A DNA stretch of 64,000 nucleotides from Emcibacteraceae bacterium (GTDB taxonomy: Bacteria > Pseudomonadota > Alphaproteobacteria > Sphingomonadales > Emcibacteraceae). Location: NCBI GenBank assembly GCA_021774795.1, contig JAJFIR010000029.1, positions 1 through 64,000 on the forward strand, in the 5' to 3' direction. Position numbers and translations under genes: made by a program. How positions within the stretch are numbered: position 1 is the first letter of the stretch; each line of letters starts with the position of its first letter. The notes under the pieces are model-generated. The model was not told the origin of the DNA. It did not search any database and was given only the letters and a program-made list of their open reading frames with translations. Shown here piece after piece: positions 4,147 to 31,598 of the stretch.

Positions 4147-5391
4147 TTAAATATTCGGGTCGCGCCTAAACTCGTCAAGATCAATTTCACCTTCCCATTT
4201 GGCAACAGATGTACAAACAGCAAGGTCACCAGTGACATTAACCGTTGTCCTAACCATGTCCAATGGACGATCAAATGGAAGAAGAAAACCAACGACTAAA
4301 GCGGTTTGTTCCGCTGAAATACCCATAACACCAAGCACCCCGGCAAGCAGGAAAAGACTGGCCGACGGCACCGCAGCGGTACCAATCGAAGCGATTGTTG
4401 TCGTAAGGGCAATAAGCGCATAATCCGCTAAACTAAGATCAATTCCAAATGACTGCGCTGTGAAGACAGCGACGGTCCCGACGTAAATGGCCGTGCCGTC
4501 CATGTTTATCGTTGCTCCAAGCGGAATAACAGAAGATGCCACAGGTGGTTTAATTCCAAGGTTATCTTCAGCGACAGCAATGGTTACCGGCATGGTCGCG
4601 CTACTGGATGACGTTGAAAACGCGACGAGTTGTGCGTCAATGATATCTTTAAAGAAACGCACAGCGGGTAACCCCAGAACAAATTTGATCAGGCTCCCGT
4701 GTACGATAATAACATGGAGGAAGCAGGCACCGATAATAGTAGCGGCAAGTGGTAAGACATCTAAGAGTGCCGCAACCCCTTTAGTTCCGACAACAGCCGC
4801 GATTAATGCAAATACACCAAACGGCGCAACTTCCATAATGATGTGGGTAATTTTTAAAACCACCTCAGATGCACTGTCCATAACGCTGGCAATCGGCTTT
4901 GCCTTTTCTCCGGCAAGCATGATACCAACACCAAATATTAGGGCGAAGAAGATCACGGCCAGAATGTCACCTTCCGCGAGAGCGGCGACCGGATTTGCAG
5001 GAATAATGTTCATCATGCGCTCTCCAAGTGGCATAGCCGCGGCGAGCGTTTGCGGCTCACCACCGGTTATTGAGACTCCAATACCGGGTTGGACAACCGC
5101 AGAGAGAAATAAGCCGATAACAATAGCAACTGCGGTCGTAGCCAAATATAACCCCATAGTTTTAACACCAATAGAACCCAGCTTTTTTGGACTTCCCATA
5201 GCAACTACACCGGAGACGAGAGTAACAAAAATAAGTGGTACCACAATCATCCTGATGAGCTTGATGAACACATCACCAATCCATTTAATGTTTTCCGCAG
5301 ATTCCCCAAATACGGTGCCGACAATAACACCAAGGATGAGCGCCAATATAATTCGCTTCCAAAGCTTTGTTTCAAACCACATTTTTAGCAT
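4147..5391 (-). CDS. Dicarboxylate/amino acid:cation symporter (DAACS family, GltP/DctA-like)
   Basis: 414 residues, eight transmembrane helices plus two re-entrant loops typical of the family. The diagnostic pieces are present: serine-rich hairpin STSSSSATMP, helix 7 motif NMDGTA, the second hairpin around GTAAVPSAS and helix 8 with RTTVNVTGD, which binds substrate and sodium. It should import glutamate, aspartate or C4-dicarboxylates with Na+ or H+ across the inner membrane. The helix 8 region (RTTVNVTGD) leans towards an amino-acid or dicarboxylate substrate but does not decide between them. Divergent from trpG with about 175 bases between, which must contain both promoters. Confidence 0.93.
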   Translation of the reverse strand: MLKMWFETKLWKRIILALILGVIVGTVFGESAENIKWIGDVFIKLIRMIVVPLIFVTLVSGVVAMGSPKKLGSIGVKTMGLYLATTAVAIVIGLFLSAVVQPGIGVSITGGEPQTLAAAMPLGERMMNIIPANPVAALAEGDILAVIFFALIFGVGIMLAGEKAKPIASVMDSASEVVLKITHIIMEVAPFGVFALIAAVVGTKGVAALLDVLPLAATIIGACFLHVIIVHGSLIKFVLGLPAVRFFKDIIDAQLVAFSTSSSSATMPVTIAVAEDNLGIKPPVASSVIPLGATINMDGTAIYVGTVAVFTAQSFGIDLSLADYALIALTTTIASIGTAAVPSASLFLLAGVLGVMGISAEQTALVVGFLLPFDRPLDMVRTTVNVTGDLAVCTSVAKWEGEIDLDEFRRDPNI

Positions 5392-5566
5392 TTGTTACTA
5401 CACTCCCTTTTTATACTTCTGATTTTCTTTTTATAATTTTGTAGCATTTTCACCAAATTATGGAATAAAAATACTTTTCCCTGCCAATGACCTTAAATTA
5501 TTGTTGTACCTTTTGCAGCATCTTTTGTAAAAGAAGTGGTATTTTTTTAAAAAGGCTTTGATTTTC

Positions 5567-6154
5567 ATGTTTTTACTGATCGATAATTATGACAGTTTTA
5601 CCTATAATTTGTACCATTACCTCGGCGAAATTGGTGCTGATGTGGAAGTCTACCGAAATGATGAAATATCAGTGGATGGAGTTAATGCAAAAAACCCGAA
5701 TGGAATAATACTCTCTCCCGGGCCTTGCACCCCTAATGAAGCAGGTATCTGCCTCGAAATTGTTGAAGGACTTGGAAAAGAAATCCCAATCTTAGGGGTT
5801 TGTCTCGGGCATCAGTCAATCGGGCAGGTTTACGGCGGCAAAGTCATTCGTGCACCTTATCTAATGCACGGAAAAGTAAGCAAGATAAATCACCGAAACC
5901 AGACTATTTTTGCCGGGTTAAATAACCCGTTCTCAGCAACGCGCTATCATTCCCTGATTGTTGACCGTGATAGTCTGCCTGTAGAGTTAAGCATAACTTC
6001 TGAAACAGATGACGGTATAATTATGGGAATATCCCACAAAGAATATCCCGTTCATGGTGTCCAGTTTCACCCGGAAAGTATAGCATCTGAACATGGTCAT
6101 GATTTGCTGCGGAATTTTGTCACTATCGCTGAAGAGTTTAACAATGGATTATGA
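5567..6154 (+). CDS. trpG: Anthranilate synthase component II (glutamine amidotransferase)
   Basis: Class I glutamine amidotransferase that supplies ammonia to TrpE (or PabB) for anthranilate (or aminodeoxychorismate) synthesis. Seen: LLIDNYDSFTYNL at the start, LSPGPCTP, the nucleophile Cys in GVCLGHQSIG and the His-Glu pair in VQFHPES. Length (195 residues) is normal. I start at the ATG at 5567; the TTG nine bases upstream adds only three residues and the family begins MFLLIDNYD. The stop overlaps the trpD start by ATGA, so the two are translationally coupled. trpE, usually just upstream in alphaproteobacteria, is not in the window. Confidence 0.96.
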   Translation: MFLLIDNYDSFTYNLYHYLGEIGADVEVYRNDEISVDGVNAKNPNGIILSPGPCTPNEAGICLEIVEGLGKEIPILGVCLGHQSIGQVYGGKVIRAPYLMHGKVSKINHRNQTIFAGLNNPFSATRYHSLIVDRDSLPVELSITSETDDGIIMGISHKEYPVHGVQFHPESIASEHGHDLLRNFVTIAEEFNNGL

Positions 6155-8030: not shown

Positions 8031-8507
8031 ATGTCAGGACTTACCCATTTAGATGATAACGGCCGCGCCAGTATGGTGGATGTGTCAGAGAAAGAAGAAA
8101 CCAGACGCATTGCTGTTGCGAAAGGTCGCATTTACATGAAATCCGAAACATTGACCCTTATCGAAAGTGGTGATGTCAAGAAAGGCGATGTTTATACGGT
8201 GGCGCGGCTTGCCGGAATAATGGCTGCAAAGAAAACAGCTGACCTTATTCCACTTTGCCACCCCCTGCCCATTCAGAATGTCCAGGTCGACCTTAAAAGT
8301 AATCGAGGCGAAAGCTGCATTGATATTTCGGCCACTGCCAGCCTTTTTGGTCGCACCGGGATAGAAATGGAGGCACTAGCGGCAGTTTCAGTCGCAGGAC
8401 TGGCTATCTATGACATGTGTAAGGCGGTCGATAAAGCCATGAAAATTACAGATGTCCGACTTGTACACAAGTCCGGCGGCAAATCGGGAACTTACAACGC
8501 GGATTAA
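8031..8507 (+). CDS. moaC: Cyclic pyranopterin monophosphate synthase accessory/catalytic protein MoaC
   Basis: Converts the MoaA product (3',8-cyclo-GTP) to cyclic pyranopterin monophosphate, first stage of molybdenum cofactor synthesis. Seen: MVDVSEKEETRR, the LIPLCHPLPI loop at about residue 75 and the C-terminal catalytic part FGRTGIEMEAL ... YDMCKAVDK with its conserved Asp and Lys. 158 residues, normal. Good ribosome site (AGGAAAG) before the ATG. Its place between trpC and moeA is the usual alphaproteobacterial arrangement. moaA, moaD and moaE are not in the window. Confidence 0.97.
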   Translation: MSGLTHLDDNGRASMVDVSEKEETRRIAVAKGRIYMKSETLTLIESGDVKKGDVYTVARLAGIMAAKKTADLIPLCHPLPIQNVQVDLKSNRGESCIDISATASLFGRTGIEMEALAAVSVAGLAIYDMCKAVDKAMKITDVRLVHKSGGKSGTYNAD

Positions 8508-23589: not shown

Positions 23590-24885
23590 ATGTTAAGGAT
23601 TTTTGAAAAAATTAATTTCACAATCTGGGCGGCGGTCGTGTTTACTGCCTTAACGTTATCGCCGAGCTTGGCACAAAAAGTTTTTCCGGGACATCAACCA
23701 CCTGTTCCGGCATTTTCCGGCCAAACAAGAGCACCAATTGCAGATCAAAGTGCCGCAGTTGATATTACTGTGATAAAAGACGATTTATTTCTACCGTGGG
23801 GTATCGCAGCACTACCTAACGGTAATTTCCTTATGAGTGAAATGACGGGGAGACTTAGTTTGGTTAATGCTGACGGCATCGTAACTGCGCCCCTGCCAGG
23901 CCTTCCACCTGTCCGGGGTTACTGGTTTATGGGACTTATGGATATTGTCCTTGATCCTGACTTTGAAAATAATCGCCTTGTCTATTTTAGTTATTTTGCC
24001 CCACCAGACGGAGAAGAAGGCAACGGTACCCACAAAACGACCAAAGAATGGGGAGATGCATATGTTAGAACGACAGCACTTCACGATGAATGGAAAGAAA
24101 AAGACAAAGACTATAAAATCGACAACCCCTTTGACAGACGCTTTATTGGTCGCGGAAAATTATCGCAAGACGAAACCAGAATTGACGACTTCGAAAATAT
24201 ATTTGAAGTAGGCGCACGCCGAATGACATTTGGTTCCGATGGAAAACTGTGGGTAACCACGTGGGGGCGCGGCGATCCACAGGACACATTATCATTGGGC
24301 AGTAAAATGCTACGGTTAAATTCTGACGGTTCTATTCCAAAAGATAACCCGTTTATTGGAAATGATGATGTCCATGACGCGATTTACGCATATGGGTTTC
24401 GCGATCCATCGGGAACGGTACGCAATCCGACAACTGGTGATGTATGGACCATAGAACACGGCCCACAAGGTGGTGATGAAATTAACGTTATGAAACCGGG
24501 CGCAAATTATGGCTGGCCGATTATAACGTATGGCCGCAATTACGGTGATGATGCGTTGCCGGTAGGCGACGGGATTAGTGCCAAAGAAGGTATGGAACAA
24601 CCATTATATTTTTGGAATCCAAACATAGCACCCTCCTCCATGATGTTTTATACCGGTGATCTTTTCCCAAAATGGAAAAATGATATCTTGGTAACATCGC
24701 TCAAAGGGAAACAACTGACACGCCTAAAGGTTTCCGGGAATAATATTGTTGCGGAAGAGAGATTGATAGAGCATTTTGGCGAACGACTTCGAACTGTGAC
24801 ACAAGGGGCGGACGGCGCAATTTATGTTGTTACAGATTCAAGGGAAAACGGTCAACTGATAAAAGTTACGCCAAAAACTAACTAG
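23590..24885 (+). CDS. PQQ-dependent sugar dehydrogenase (YliI/soluble GDH-type beta-propeller)
   Basis: 431 residues with a signal peptide (cleavage near LAQ at 29). Six-bladed propeller of the GSDH family: DLFLPWGIAALPNGNFLMSEMTGRL in blade one, RRMTFGSDGKLWVTTWGRGD, AYGFRDPSGTVRNP and the PQQ/calcium region EHGPQGGDEINVMKPGANYGWP. It oxidises aldose sugars in the periplasm with PQQ as cofactor. No pqq synthesis genes are in the window, so the cofactor may be made elsewhere or scavenged. Perfect AGGAGG site before the ATG. The stop overlaps that of phhB (shared CTAG). Confidence 0.92.
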   Translation: MLRIFEKINFTIWAAVVFTALTLSPSLAQKVFPGHQPPVPAFSGQTRAPIADQSAAVDITVIKDDLFLPWGIAALPNGNFLMSEMTGRLSLVNADGIVTAPLPGLPPVRGYWFMGLMDIVLDPDFENNRLVYFSYFAPPDGEEGNGTHKTTKEWGDAYVRTTALHDEWKEKDKDYKIDNPFDRRFIGRGKLSQDETRIDDFENIFEVGARRMTFGSDGKLWVTTWGRGDPQDTLSLGSKMLRLNSDGSIPKDNPFIGNDDVHDAIYAYGFRDPSGTVRNPTTGDVWTIEHGPQGGDEINVMKPGANYGWPIITYGRNYGDDALPVGDGISAKEGMEQPLYFWNPNIAPSSMMFYTGDLFPKWKNDILVTSLKGKQLTRLKVSGNNIVAEERLIEHFGERLRTVTQGADGAIYVVTDSRENGQLIKVTPKTN

Positions 24886-25163: not shown

Positions 25164-25176
25164 AATTTATCCTATT

Positions 25177-25860
25177 TTATACCCTGCCCCTGACAGGTAT
25201 GAGAGCACCATTAATGCCCGTTGATCTGTCTGACGCCAAAAATGCCATTACATTTACCAGCTCAGAAGGCGTAACCCATGAAGAAAAATCTCCTTGCGGC
25301 ATATCTGATCGGTTCTGTCGCGTATCAATTATAGAAGGTAAAATAGCGTTTACGGTCACGCTATCTGATTTCGTCTCTTCCGCTAGAGCCTCAGTGTATC
25401 TCATGACAGCGGATTTAGATATGCTGTATGCAGCCATTCCGCCTCCCGCCGTAATTGCTCCTATCGCCCCAATATTTATAACGCGCCCACAAATTGATTT
25501 TTTTAAATATTCCAGTGATGCACTCGTTATATTAAATACAGTTTTAAAGTTTATACTGATCATATTTTCTACATCAGCATACTGAGTTTCTTTTATTTCT
25601 TTAAATGTGAAACCGCCGGCAATATTGACTAAGACATCAATAGATTTATATCGATTGATCACTTGAGAAATTAACTTACTTACACATTCAGCATTTCCAA
25701 GATCGCATTTTTCTATCGGGAAATAATTTTTGCTTTCCACCGTCGTCTTTGTCCCGTGGTAAATACCCACAACATTTGCACCCAACTTTAAAAATTCTTC
25801 GACGGCTATTCGACCAACTGTGCCACCCGCACCGGTTATCAATACTGTTTTATTTTTCAT
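25177..25860 (-). CDS. Short-chain dehydrogenase, probable dihydropteridine reductase (QDPR-like)
   Basis: 227-residue SDR with the NAD(P) loop TGAGGTVG (9-16), NIAGG at 79-83 and the catalytic Tyr145-x3-Lys149. The usual catalytic Ser, 13 residues before the Tyr, is Ala132. As I recall, mammalian dihydropteridine reductase has the same Ser-to-Ala change (Ala133), and the same local pattern of GA followed by a Tyr-x3-Lys. After the active site it carries DTRQNRSDMPQGDFSSW, close to DTPMNRKSMPEADFSSW of the human enzyme. The gene sits with 15- and 13-base gaps between phhA and phhB. The three facts together suggest that it reduces quinonoid dihydropterin to tetrahydropterin with NAD(P)H. A generic SDR of another pathway remains possible, since MPxxDFSxW also occurs in other SDRs. 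Confidence 0.85.
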   Translation of the reverse strand: MKNKTVLITGAGGTVGRIAVEEFLKLGANVVGIYHGTKTTVESKNYFPIEKCDLGNAECVSKLISQVINRYKSIDVLVNIAGGFTFKEIKETQYADVENMISINFKTVFNITSASLEYLKKSICGRVINIGAIGAITAGGGMAAYSISKSAVMRYTEALAEETKSDSVTVNAILPSIIDTRQNRSDMPQGDFSSWVTPSELVNVMAFLASDRSTGINGALIPVRGRV

Positions 25861-25875
25861 GATTTTTACTCGAAT

Positions 25876-26793
25876 TTAAACGGGTGTCGCGCCGGAAGGT
25901 TTTCCCCCACGTTGCTGATATTCTTGCGTACCATGGTGATATACATGATCAACTTCCAGAACAGCGGGCGGCGCATATTGAAATGCCGGGCCAATCTTTT
26001 GATAAATTTGTTCGAACGGACGACCTTGTGTCAATTTAAATAATTCATCAAAGTCGTCAATTACGAAATAGCTCTGTTGCAGATCATCATGCTTGTAATC
26101 TGTTCTCATAACGCGGTCGACATTCAAATGAATTCTATTTGGTGATTTTGCCTCAAGCGAGTAACTGCTTTCCACCGCCGATGAAAGGATGCCGGCACCG
26201 TAAATTCGCATTCCTTTATCAGTATTAATGAGGCCAAATTCCACCGTGTACCAATAAAGGGCACTTAAGGCCTTCAAACGGTTATATTCAAGAGCTTTCC
26301 ATCCGGCTTTACCGTATTCTTCCATATAACGGGCAAAATTGGGGTCAGTTAACATTGGCACGTGGCCAAACACATCATGAAAAACATCCGGCAGTTCTAT
26401 ATATTTTTCCTCTTCTTCACTTCTGATAAAATTACCGGCCGGGAACCTTTTATTAGCAAGATGATAAAAGAATACGTGATCAGGCACCAGCTCAGGAACG
26501 GCAACGACGCTCCAGCCTGTTAGCGGGTCTAATATTTCATTTGTTTTATTGAAGTCGGGAACGCCTCCCTGATCGAAATCCAGAAGTTTTAACCCCTCGA
26601 AAAATTGATCGCAAGCCAGTCCAGGCAGAATATCCATTTGCCTTTTATATAACTTATCCCAATAGTTGTGCTCTTCTAATGAATATTGTTTCTGCTCTTT
26701 TTCAAGCCAATCATCACTTAAGTGATTGGGTTTCTTTAAACAAGCCATGAATACCGACGTTGAAGGTTCCGGCAATATAGAATAGTCATACAT
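25876..26793 (-). CDS. phhA: Phenylalanine 4-monooxygenase
   Basis: Iron- and tetrahydropterin-dependent hydroxylase turning phenylalanine into tyrosine. 305 residues, bacterial single-domain form. Iron ligands are visible: His139 and His144 in VFHDVFGHVP and Glu185 in WYTVEFGL. Other landmarks are LTGWSVVAVPELVP and RFPAGNFIRS. First gene of a three-gene operon with an SDR and phhB, divergent from an Lrp/AsnC regulator, with an inverted repeat in the shared promoter region. Confidence 0.97.
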   Translation of the reverse strand: MYDYSILPEPSTSVFMACLKKPNHLSDDWLEKEQKQYSLEEHNYWDKLYKRQMDILPGLACDQFFEGLKLLDFDQGGVPDFNKTNEILDPLTGWSVVAVPELVPDHVFFYHLANKRFPAGNFIRSEEEEKYIELPDVFHDVFGHVPMLTDPNFARYMEEYGKAGWKALEYNRLKALSALYWYTVEFGLINTDKGMRIYGAGILSSAVESSYSLEAKSPNRIHLNVDRVMRTDYKHDDLQQSYFVIDDFDELFKLTQGRPFEQIYQKIGPAFQYAPPAVLEVDHVYHHGTQEYQQRGGKPSGATPV

Positions 26794-26852: not shown

Positions 26853-26927
26853 AATGCCCTTTATTTGACATTCGTGATATTTTAATTAAACATATGTTTC
26901 AAAATTTTACCTAATATGGAAGTTATG

Positions 26928-27389
26928 ATGAAAATATCGAAAACAGATCAAAAAATACTTATTGCAATGCAAAAGTCCCCTACTTTATCGCAGTCAGAAC
27001 TAGCCGATGAATTGGGCATGTCGCGAACCTCATGCTGGCGACATGTAAAAGATTTAGAAGACGAAGAAATTTTACAAGAACGAAAAGCGGAAATAAATGC
27101 TGAAAAAATAGGCCTGTCAATTCGCGCAAACTGCGTGATCAGCATCAATAACCATAGCAATGAAACAAGAGCCAAATTCGAAAAACATATTATAAGCATG
27201 GATAACGTTTTAGAGTGTTATGCCACGTCCGGCGGGAAGGACTACATGCTTACCGTAGTTGCACGTGATATAAAAGATTATTATGAAATGATGAGTTCGA
27301 CTATTTTGGACAATCCTACAATCGAGAGTTCACAAACAAGCTTCTTAATGAAAAAAATAAAAAGTACCCATATATTACCAATATCGTAA
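26928..27389 (+). CDS. Lrp/AsnC family transcriptional regulator
   Basis: 153 residues. N-terminal winged HTH (KISKTDQKILIAMQ, SQSELADELGMSRTSCWRHVKDLEDEEIL) and a C-terminal RAM/AsnC ligand-binding domain (VLECYATSGGKDYMLTVVARDIKDYYEMM). Divergent from the phhA operon across about 130 bases holding an inverted repeat, so the likely role is control of phenylalanine hydroxylation by an aromatic amino acid. Three in-frame ATGs (26916, 26925, 26928) are possible; GGAAG spacing favours the last. Confidence 0.9.
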   Translation: MKISKTDQKILIAMQKSPTLSQSELADELGMSRTSCWRHVKDLEDEEILQERKAEINAEKIGLSIRANCVISINNHSNETRAKFEKHIISMDNVLECYATSGGKDYMLTVVARDIKDYYEMMSSTILDNPTIESSQTSFLMKKIKSTHILPIS

Positions 27390-28002: not shown

Positions 28003-28578
28003 ATGACGAAAATATTATTTTTCGCCGGTAGCGCACGAACAAACTCATTCAGTAAGAAATTGGCAAAAACTGCTTACAAGCTGGCTTGCGAAAAAGGCGT
28101 GAATGCGACTTTTATCAACTTAAAAGACTATCCCATGCCACTCTATAATGGTGACCTCGAAGATGAATTGGGCTTACCCGATAACGCAATTGCCCTTAAG
28201 AAACTATTTGCGGAACAGGCGGGATTTTTCATCACAAGCCCCGAATATAACAGTTCATTTACCCCGCTATTTAAAAATACCATTGACTGGATATCTCGCA
28301 CCAATCCGAATGATCCCGACATGGCTGATCCTTATAAAGGTAAAACAGCCGCAATTGCCGGTTCTTCGCCAGGAGGACTTGGTGGTATGCGCGTATTGGT
28401 ACCCCTTAGAATGCTGCTTGCTAATATCGGAATTCACGTGATGCCAACACAAATGGCTTTAAATTTTGCCGGTAAAGCTTTCGATGACAGTGGAAGCCTT
28501 ACTGATGAAAACCAACTGGGTATGTTGAACAAAACACTTGATGAATTAATAAACGTGACCCGTGCGTTAAAAAATTAA
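28003..28578 (+). CDS. NADPH-dependent FMN reductase family protein
   Basis: 191-residue flavodoxin-like fold. The FMN phosphate loop is FAGSARTNSFSKKLA (7-21), the second FMN contact is SPEYNSSFTPLFKNTIDWIS, and GSSPGGLGGMR is the third. It reduces FMN, quinones or chromate-like acceptors with NADPH. Its stop overlaps that of the converging fusion gene by four bases. Confidence 0.9.
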   Translation: MTKILFFAGSARTNSFSKKLAKTAYKLACEKGVNATFINLKDYPMPLYNGDLEDELGLPDNAIALKKLFAEQAGFFITSPEYNSSFTPLFKNTIDWISRTNPNDPDMADPYKGKTAAIAGSSPGGLGGMRVLVPLRMLLANIGIHVMPTQMALNFAGKAFDDSGSLTDENQLGMLNKTLDELINVTRALKN

Positions 28579-31500
28579 AGCCCTTCATTTCCTAATCTTT
28601 TAAAGGCTTTTTCCAGTTTTCTAAGAAAGATATCCGCTTCGTGAATGCCAAAAACCATTGGTGGCTTAGCCTTTAGCACATTTGCATAGGGACCGTCCGT
28701 AGAAAGAAGGACCGCATCATCCCGTAAATACTGAATTATGGCATCTGCTTCTTGTGGTGCACGTTCCCTTGTATCGCGGTCCTTAACCAGTTCAGCACCG
28801 ACAAACAACCCCGAGCCTCTCACGTCTCCTATTAACGATTGCCTATCCATCATATCTCTAAGTCCATCCAGTATATAATTTCCTGTTTCAAGTGCCCTTT
28901 GTTGTAGCCCCTCACCTTCAATAACATCCATTACTGCCAAGCCAACAGCGCAAGACACGGGATTGCCACCAAAGCTATTGAAATATTCCATACCGTTGGC
29001 AAACGCGTCGGCAATTTCACGTGTCGTAATGACCGCAGCCATGGGATGACCGTTACCAATGGGTTTTCCAAGGCATACTATATCGGGCACCACTCCTTGT
29101 CGTTGAAAACCCCACATATGATCCCCGACGCGGCCAAAACCGACTTGAACTTCGTCCGCTATACAAAGTCCACCTGCACTTCGGGTTTTGTCATAAGCCG
29201 CCTTCAAATATCCATCCGGATAAACCACTTGGCCGCCAACACCCGCAATTGATTCAGCAATGAATACCGCCGGTCCTTCACCGGTTTTTTCCACCAAATC
29301 AGCAATTTGTGCATCAACATCCGCTGCGTATTTTTCACCGTTATTATCGCCTAGACCCTTAAATTGACCTTGATAAGGGTCAGGAAATTCCGCGATTCTC
29401 ACATGCTCCGGGCATCCAATGCCGCCTTTCCGGTTAAATTTATAGGGGCTAATTTCAACGGTAGTGCTGGTATTGCCATGATATCCCCAGTCAACCACGA
29501 CCGTTGTTTGTCGACCTGTTTTATGACGAGCCAGACGTAATGCAAGCTCATTGGCTTCTGAACCAGAATTAACAAAAAACATTACAGAAAGTGGATTAGG
29601 CATTGTCGATAAAATGCGAGAAGCCAATTTATTAATACCGCTATATAAATAACGCGAGTTTGTGTTCAACAACCTGGCCTGGGCAGTAAGCGCATCCACG
29701 ACATGAGGATTACAATGCCCAACATGAGCGATGTTATTAACACAATCAAGAAACCCCCTACCCGTATGATCATATAAGTATGCTCCTCGGCCACGAACCA
29801 TATGAATGTGCTTGTTATAAGCAACACTTAAAGACGGCGCCAATAGTTCGGCGCGATTATTCATTATATCTTTTACAGAAACCGCGGATTTAACGAAGCT
29901 TTCCGGTGCTAGCTTCGTGATTAAATTGGCGTCCGGGCTGATATCATTCCACACATGCGCTACGGATGGTTCGCATGCGCCCGGAAAATTTCCGTCACTA
30001 GTGTCCAGTAAATCAGTAATAATTTGCAGGTGTAAATGGGTCGACCAGCCACCATTTTCTTTAATATTTCCAACAGTACTAATTTTTTGGCCAGCTTCTA
30101 CTGTATCACCGATTTTAAGCGCAATATCCGATAGGTGCCCGTAAAGAGTATAAAATACCGGACCATTATCGGTTAACTTATGTCTTAAGATCAAAGTATT
30201 ACCGAAATCATAGGCATCATTATTATTTGCTATGTTATGCACGGTTCCCGGTAATGGGCTATAAATGTTGCACCCTTCTTCTATCCAGAAATCTAGCGCA
30301 GTGTGGACTGTGCGCCTTTCTGGTCCAGCTAAACTTTGGCAACCGTCAAATTTAAATGCCGTACGGTTTTCCCCGTAACCACCAATTCCAAACAAGGCGT
30401 CGTTATCATTTAAAGTATCGATGACCCACTGATTATGTTTTTGCGGATCATTTATATATTCACTACCGGGTGCCCCTTCTGCTAGATCCATCATCATACG
30501 TGGCTCAGTATTCAAATCAAAATCAAAGAGTGAAGCTGCTTGACAGTTTATAAGCGTCTCTGCCACGGCGGCGTAATTTCTAGTCGCTCTGAAGCCGCCT
30601 GCTTTTCTTGCAAAGCATGCCAGAAAAGATAAATTAACGTCTTTCAAACGCTTTAAAGCCTTGATTGCCGGTGCTTGAGTGATTATTAAATATTCTTTGT
30701 GGGTATCGCTGCTGGCTTTCGTCACACGGTTTGACGAAATACAAACGCTCATCACCAAACGCATCGCCGCAAGATCGAACAAAATCTCAAGCTCATCTTC
30801 GGTTAACGCAAACTGTTTCGTATAACCGTCAATTACGGCATTTGAAACCGCGAACAGATCATCAACATCCAAAATTGCGTATGCCAGCACTATCGCAAGT
30901 TCATTAATTTGCTTAGCAAAAAGCATGTCCCCAAAATCTATTAGACCACTTATTTTATCGCCCTGAACAACGAGATTATAATCATTCGCATCGCTATGAA
31001 TAACCGCGGAGCGCATTTTTCTTAGTCGTGGCGCAACTTTTTGTTCGTATCTATCATAATAATATTCAATTAGTGATTTGACCTTCTTATCTTCAATGTC
31101 GTTTATATACTGTTTTGAAAAGAGTGCGTTGTCCAAATTCCACAAAAAATCCGGTTGATGGGCTTTAATGTGGCCAAAACTCTGCATCGCACTTGAAAAA
31201 CGACCCATAAAACGGCCCAAATCATAATAAAGGGCGACGCTTTTTGTTGCGCCGTTAAATATGTCTCCTTCTAAAAAACTTATCAGGCGAATACCGTAAC
31301 CGTCATGATCAAAAATTTCTTGGCCTTCTTTACCCTTCTTGACCGTGGGAATAGCCAAAGATGGGTCAAGCAGCGCCACATGGTTTAGAACCGCATTCTG
31401 AAATTCGATTAATTCGCGATCTTCTGCTTTATTAGCAACTTTTAGAACATATTCCCCATCGTTATTAATTAAGCGTGCGTTTTGATCCCTTTCGCTGACG

Positions 31501-31598
31501 AGCGGCTTTATGGTGCCGCCCTCATTAAAATAATCTTGTGCAATCTTGCTTAATTCCTCCGTTGAAAAAGCAGGGGGCTTGCTTTCAAAAACTTCCAT
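28575..31598 (-). CDS. Three-domain fusion: APH-type small-molecule kinase, M23 peptidase domain, class III phospho-lyase/aminotransferase
   Basis: 1007 residues. Residues about 20-330 are an APH/choline-kinase-like kinase with catalytic HSDANDYN (His201, Asp203, Asn208) and DFG (221-223). About 405-545 is an M23 (LytM) domain with zinc ligands His432 and Asp436 (HTALD) and the HLH pair 521-523; YGH at 486-488 is also present. About 575-1007 is a class III PLP enzyme with SGSEAN (678-683), Asp815 in [11 protein letters not shown] and Lys845 in [10 protein letters not shown]. This last sequence is that of ethanolamine-phosphate / 5-phosphohydroxylysine phospho-lyases (ETNPPL/PHYKPL), whose partner in animals is the APH-type hydroxylysine kinase. 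I infer that the protein phosphorylates an amino alcohol or hydroxylysine-like substrate and then eliminates phosphate and ammonia. The M23 part has intact ligands yet there is no signal peptide, so its job inside the cell is unclear. Confidence 0.9.

Follow-up and report, generated by a model that had tools for sequence, protein, structure and literature searches.

Bacterial phenylalanine hydroxylases (PhhA) need their pterin cofactor to be recycled. The closest described enzymes for the recycling step considered here are the eukaryotic dihydropteridine reductases of the QDPR type (human, 1hdr; rat, 1dhr; C. elegans, 1ooe; Dictyostelium, 3orf; and the entry 8b5t), which transfer a hydride to the quinonoid ring and lack the serine that orients the ketone in other SDRs. 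Two quinonoid dihydropterin reductases are known from E. coli; one of these is reportedly a nitroreductase-like flavoprotein and, to our knowledge, neither is an SDR. In the accessible part of PMC1971073, both E. coli enzymes are cited (references 58 and 59), the other one being tied by title to the haemoglobin-like protein Hmp, and they are reported to carry out in a bacterium the same reaction that is proposed below for an SDR. The pteridine reductases FolM, PTR1 and PruA share the SDR fold and act on dihydropterins. According to the same portion of PMC1971073, FolM-type enzymes make or reduce 7,8-dihydropterins and are distinct from the quinonoid reductases, and FolM and PTR1 possess a TGX3RXG motif that sets them apart from the protein described here.

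With respect to gene order, the passages of PMC3458870 that are available describe phhA and phhB together in the phhABC genes of Pseudomonas, as in the present locus, with an aminotransferase gene as the third member rather than an SDR gene; phhB and phhC likewise accompany phhA in other pyomelanin producers, and phhA of Legionella has other neighbours. In engineering work, as far as the accessible excerpts describe it, PhhA has been combined with human dihydropteridine reductase in E. coli (PMC10354952), with an E. coli dihydropteridine reductase (PMC4029321) and with a dihydromonapterin reductase (PMC11885754). The chemistry and the fold are known, and what appears to be new is a divergent bacterial branch together with its gene order: a search of the literature (titles, abstract openings and passages, with few subscription papers) met neither a bacterial SDR-type QDPR nor the order phhA-SDR-phhB. 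Judging from its sequence, the SDR encoded in this locus is probably a QDPR-type enzyme of bacteria that recycles quinonoid dihydropterin.

The phhA-SDR-phhB locus

The window, i.e., the whole 64,000-nucleotide stretch that was analysed, contains phhA, an SDR gene and phhB in one direction, with a divergent gene for a regulator of the Lrp/AsnC type adjoining phhA (Table 1). The sequence-only reading had placed the SDR gene between phhA and phhB, separated from them by 15 and 13 bases, and the coordinates of the gaps (25861-25875 and 25164-25176, respectively) agree with this. The phhA gene is the sole PF00351 match in its genome. The Lrp/AsnC-type gene is the probable regulator of the operon; a gene of this type is also divergent to phhA in two other loci (L162 and L167). 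We infer that the three genes are cotranscribed. A promoter scan of the operon region gave 5 predictions, no more than expected (shuffled mean 7.8), and a terminator scan gave 3, with little excess over the shuffled mean of 2.0.

Table 1. Positions of the genes and residues discussed in the text
Feature	Position	Strand	Description
phhA, phenylalanine 4-monooxygenase, operon gene 1	26793-25876	minus	305 aa; TIGR01267 298.6 bits (cut-off 264.75); PF00351
SDR, putative quinonoid dihydropteridine reductase, operon gene 2	25860-25177	minus	227 aa; PF00106 124.9 bits (cut-off 26.6)
phhB, pterin-4a-carbinolamine dehydratase, operon gene 3	25163-24882	minus	93 aa; PF01329 105 bits (cut-off 26); NF002018 123.8 bits (cut-off 108)
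Lrp/AsnC-type regulator, divergent, adjoins phhA	26922-27389 (mechanical ORF start 26916)	plus	PF01037 and HTH_24
Residues of the window SDR	G10/G13/G16; NIAGGF 79-84; Ala132; Tyr145/Lys149 (YxxxK)		TGAGGTVG, not TGX3RXG
Signature segment of the window SDR	P175, D179-T180, N183-R184, M187-P188, D191, W195		PxxxDTxxNRxxMPxxDxxxW, all positions present
L067, fatty-acid-hydroxylase-like gene, divergent to SDR	4559-5785	minus	PF04116; Pseudomonas plasmid
L070, fatty-acid-hydroxylase-like gene, upstream of SDR	~5194-5889	plus	37.5% identity over 232 residues to that of L067; Burkholderia replicon

Two further features of the surroundings can be mentioned. The phhB gene lies tail-to-tail with a gene of the GSDH family (23590-24885, plus strand), the two overlapping by 4 bases (24882-24885). 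Beyond the regulator, positions 28575-31598 on the minus strand encode a protein of 1007 residues in which, by eye, kinase-like, M23-peptidase-like and class III aminotransferase-like parts are joined; similar proteins are encoded near the operon in the loci L162, L163, L193 and L194.

A signature common to the SDR family and QDPR

A contig scan with the window protein alone identified 53 loci, mostly of general SDRs with 24-36% identity (a few short matches are higher). These general-SDR loci were used both as controls and to build the alignment behind a structure model. The alignment used for the signature comprises 87 sequences: 41 members of the bacterial family, three QDPRs (human, C. elegans and Dictyostelium, the same three that were compared residue by residue) and 43 other SDRs, namely 27 of these 53 loci and 16 other SDRs of the window genome. 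The window SDR is only 26% identical to human QDPR, and the sequence-only reading had linked the two through an alanine at the position of the catalytic serine, 13 residues before Tyr145, and a DFSSW motif at positions 191-195. Both features are present (Ala132 and D191-F192-S193-S194-W195), and both belong to a larger signature common to the QDPRs. Alanine occupies this position in all 41 family members and all three QDPRs but in none of the 43 other SDRs, 40 of which have serine, a distribution beyond chance. The residues D179-T/S180-N183-R184 are found in every family member and every QDPR and in no other SDR of the alignment; M187 and W195 are equally invariant in the former two groups and occur in three and one of the 43 others, respectively. 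Taken jointly, Ala132, D179-T/S180-N183-R184, M187 and W195 are present in 41/41 family members, 3/3 QDPRs and 0/43 other SDRs, which supports, at the level of sequence, the earlier assignment of the protein as a dihydropteridine reductase.

Other positions show the same tendency less strictly. Phe or Trp at position 84 is found in the entire family, in the three QDPRs and in two of the other SDRs. The AGG motif (35/41 family members, 3/3 QDPRs and 2/43 others) and the glycines 10/13/16 of GxxGxxG (41/41, 3/3 and 8/43) are not exclusive. The NNAG motif, present in 26 of the 43 other SDRs, is absent from all 41 family rows and is replaced by AGG with an aromatic residue, in the form of NIAGGF in the window SDR and CxAGGW in the QDPRs. 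At two positions of the PxxxDTxxNRxxMPxxDxxxW segment, the Dictyostelium QDPR differs, with S and N. Hence it is the signature as a whole that separates the aligned family and QDPR sequences from other SDRs; not every single feature does so. In a wider set of 78 family rows, corresponding to 68 distinct members once duplicates are removed and leaving out eight family places of the phylum set as well as the plasmid loci L179 and L181-L188, alanine is at position 132 in 67 of the 68 distinct members and serine in one. This exception, the sole aligned family member with Ser at 132 (L151/L177, G577), retains the remaining signature.

The window SDR thus resembles the QDPRs in its similar length, the proposed reaction, the glycines G10/G13/G16, AGG followed by an aromatic residue, alanine in place of serine, YxxxK, and PxxxDTxxNRxxM with the tryptophan. 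The retention of Tyr145 and Lys149 together with Ala132 fits the QDPR mechanism, given that QDPR works without the ketone-orienting serine. The differences are N79 and Phe84, where the QDPRs have Cys and Trp, Tyr34 in the place of Asp, and the location of the gene next to phhA and phhB in one operon. The Asp in question, which follows the second strand, is present in the three QDPRs and in 52 of the 68 distinct family members, and the position equivalent to Tyr34 is not Asp in the five SDR-carrying congeners either. In the QDPRs, this Asp presumably accounts for the preference for NADH; because the window SDR has Tyr34 there, the use of NADPH or of both coenzymes appears more likely for this protein than strict use of NADH.

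Profile searches connect the window SDR and QDPR independently. Among 18,950 NCBIfam models, the best match for human QDPR is NF004204 (71.7 bits, the next model scoring 42.5), and the same model is the best match for the window SDR (226.3 bits, below the cut-off of 352) and for the three of its relatives that were tried. NF004204 corresponds to PRK05653.2-5 and is named '3-oxoacyl-ACP reductase FabG'. The sequence-only reading had held that a closest match to a non-pterin SDR family with a genuine catalytic serine would speak against it, and this is not clearly the case here. The best model does carry the FabG name, but the only member checked that scores above the cut-off (L073, 423.9 bits) has Ala at the catalytic position, which makes the name doubtful; by contrast, full-length PDB searches and fold searches do rank Ser-bearing FabG-like SDRs first. 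Specifically, there is no QDPR among the best 60 of 471 PDB matches of the full-length window SDR nor among the best 60 of 625 obtained with the family profile, and FabG-like and other SDRs lead in both cases. A PDB search with the last 85 residues recovers QDPR entries at ranks 16, 17, 18, 20, 30 and 49. The predicted structure of the SDR (mean pLDDT 92.5, pTM 0.91), built on the general-SDR alignment, yields a best 50 of fold matches that are all SDR-type (TM-scores 0.84 to 0.93 by query), with FabG and other SDRs and no QDPR among them. The fold search was rejected as a discriminator, since QDPR is not separated from other SDRs by this approach.

These results bear directly on the alternative that the protein is an ordinary ketoreductase, either FabG itself or an enzyme acting on keto acids of phenylalanine/tyrosine catabolism, with a QDPR likeness that is convergent or ancestral and devoid of function. 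The name of the best curated model and the ranking in the full-length and fold searches are compatible with such a role, as are the varied, often catabolic neighbourhoods of the annotated plasmid members. Nevertheless, the NF004204 score of the window SDR is below the cut-off (226.3 vs 352), the family lacks both the catalytic serine and NNAG in 41 of 41 rows when 40 and 26 of the 43 other SDRs, respectively, possess them, and a FabG role leaves the recurring linkage to phhA unexplained. We therefore regard a ketoreductase as unlikely. With a family that is devoid of the catalytic serine, the FabG name fits poorly and, on sequence grounds, is probably wrong for NF004204.

Phylogenetic trees were built from 72, 67 and 58 of the 87 rows, after removal of control SDRs on long branches and of nearly identical family members. 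In the latter two, a branch with a support of 100/100 divides the family and QDPR from all other sampled SDRs; these trees have no root, and QDPR stands on a long branch. The same split is recovered without the signature columns (SH-aLRT 98, in a quick tree for which the program warns of meeting long branches). A topology in which the family excludes QDPR has a p-AU of 0.76, the constrained tree being 13.8 log units better than that of the free search. Given the lack of a root and the long QDPR branch, the trees were not accepted as proof of either sisterhood of QDPR and the family or descent.

Linkage to phhA, distribution and loss of the SDR gene

With family members called at E-values up to 1e-30, the SDR is present in 9 of 60 relatives (the window genome counted among the 9), in 25 of the 337 genomes of the class and in 39 of the 397 genomes of the phylum; named plasmid relatives come from alpha-, beta- and gammaproteobacteria. 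A pterin hydroxylase of PF00351 is encoded in 38 of the 67 different carrier genomes and is absent from the remaining 29. Within the class set, PF00351 is found in 12 of 25 carriers and in 58 of the 312 genomes without the SDR (p 0.0014 by Fisher's test, uncorrected for kinship). With PF00351 missing from so many carriers, co-presence of the SDR and phhA was not accepted as evidence on its own.

The sequence-only reading had suggested a search for the three-gene order in related genomes; phhA-SDR-phhB is present in all six SDR-carrying genomes of the genus (the window genome and five others, one locus being truncated inside phhA where its contig ends). In total, phhA adjoins the SDR gene in 10 of the 67 carriers, i.e., in 10 of the 38 that encode PF00351, and these cases represent four families and two gene orders. 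Outside the genus, phhA is followed by the SDR gene in G350 (family f48) and in G555 and G741 (family f176), and the order phhA-phhB-SDR with a divergent Lrp/AsnC gene is found in G649 (family f213, outside the class). In the remaining 28 genomes that possess both, phhA and the SDR gene are far apart or on separate contigs. If genes were placed at random, a simple estimate for at least 4 adjacent cases among the 33 genomes outside the genus (32 in a recount) is about 3e-9, and that for at least 3 of 30, with f176 counted once, is about 6e-7. On the Sphingobium plasmid pMSHV, some 22 kb containing unrelated genes separate phhA from the SDR gene.

In two congeners, a second phhA-like gene lies directly upstream of phhA-SDR-phhB (L162, 4434-5357, 55% identity to the window PhhA; L165, 8107-9018, 52%), possibly for another substrate. 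Further PF00351 pieces are found on another contig of G008.

Among the 13 genomes of the genus, six encode phhA and the SDR, three phhA only and four neither (one of these genomes is 53% complete). In two of the three genomes with phhA only (L192 and L194), phhB directly follows phhA. In the third (L193, G003:C221), a remnant of the SDR gene is located between phhA (1843-2772) and phhB (1395-1676) on the minus strand; its pieces match the first ~45 and the last 25 residues of the SDR, and the middle is missing. The position of the remnant implies that, in this lineage, the three-gene order is older than the loss. This congener offers a natural contrast to the carriers. The existence of three congeners without a complete SDR gene beside phhA indicates that the SDR is dispensable in those relatives. 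It could be argued from the same three congeners, which keep phhA beside phhB, that the SDR gene merely hitchhikes and that its product does not contribute to the hydroxylation of phenylalanine, but the recurrence of the phhA linkage in four families and two gene orders, as well as the intact reading frame and signature of the SDR in all six carriers of the genus, make this explanation highly improbable. In one of the congeners without the SDR (G001, locus L192), the phhA match contains an in-frame stop.

Pterin recycling, cofactor supply and carriers without PhhA

Under the QDPR-type assignment, PhhA would hydroxylate phenylalanine using O2 and tetrahydropterin and leave 4a-hydroxytetrahydropterin, which PhhB would dehydrate to quinonoid dihydropterin; the SDR would then reduce the quinonoid ring with a hydride taken from NAD(P)H, via Tyr145 and Lys149 and without a serine, and so restore tetrahydropterin. 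The substrate, the direction of the reaction and the coenzyme of the SDR are those that we infer for the protein, and a single operon may encode the whole cycle of hydroxylation and pterin recycling. A natural operon in which a putative reductase gene accompanies phhA and phhB is a directly testable candidate for the recycling that bacterial phenylalanine hydroxylases need, and it would offer a bacterial comparison for QDPR, a human disease enzyme.

Synthesis of the cofactor would fall to proteins encoded elsewhere in the genome, namely GTP cyclohydrolase I (FolE), which the window genome possesses, a PTPS-like protein and a separate SDR of the PTR1/FolM type. The genes for the latter two are consecutive (L160, 5154-6479, G000:C47), the PTPS-like gene (PF01242) preceding the SDR gene, and they are likely to form a tetrahydropterin synthesis pair. 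The two best NCBIfam models for the L160 SDR are PRK09134 and then 'pteridine reductase', both below the cut-off, and the protein has the arginine of a TGX3RXG-type motif and Asp at the position of the catalytic serine. As FolM-type enzymes act on 7,8-dihydropterins, a division of labour would follow in which the L160 pair makes the cofactor and the SDR of the operon recycles it.

The L160 gene is also relevant to the possibility that the window SDR itself belongs to the FolM/PTR1 type and reduces 7,8-dihydropterins, so that it would make tetrahydropterin rather than recycle the quinonoid form. The operon is pterin-dependent and the FolM/PTR1 enzymes are SDRs, in agreement with this possibility, but their TGX3RXG motif, as described in the accessible passages of PMC1971073 and PMC13259868, is absent from the window SDR, which has TGAGGTVG. 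Furthermore, the L160 SDR fits that type better, and we consider a FolM/PTR1 function of the operon protein unlikely.

Because 29 of the 67 carriers lack PF00351, the family as a whole cannot have the function of serving PhhA. A wider reading, which we consider tentative and rather doubtful, is that the family named FabG is the bacterial counterpart, and possibly the source, of the eukaryotic QDPR and acts as a general recycler of quinonoid dihydropterin for PhhA and other pterin-dependent oxygenases. In genomes without PhhA, the family would then serve, e.g., fatty-acid-hydroxylase-like oxygenases of the AGMO kind. If this were true, it would supply the final step that many bacteria lack in tetrahydropterin recycling. 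A fatty-acid-hydroxylase-like gene adjoins the SDR gene in 2 of 46 SDR loci (49 loci were examined), namely L067 and L070 (Table 1); none of 8 additional plasmid loci has such a neighbour. We take the L067 and L070 proteins to be AGMO-like, a group that presumably includes the pterin-dependent AGMO of animals. The link between the SDR family and AGMO-like hydroxylases is a lead only. A Burkholderia replicon (L181) contains a second, partial SDR-like stretch at 8284-8505, with 58% identity over 74 residues, about 3.6 kb from the first.
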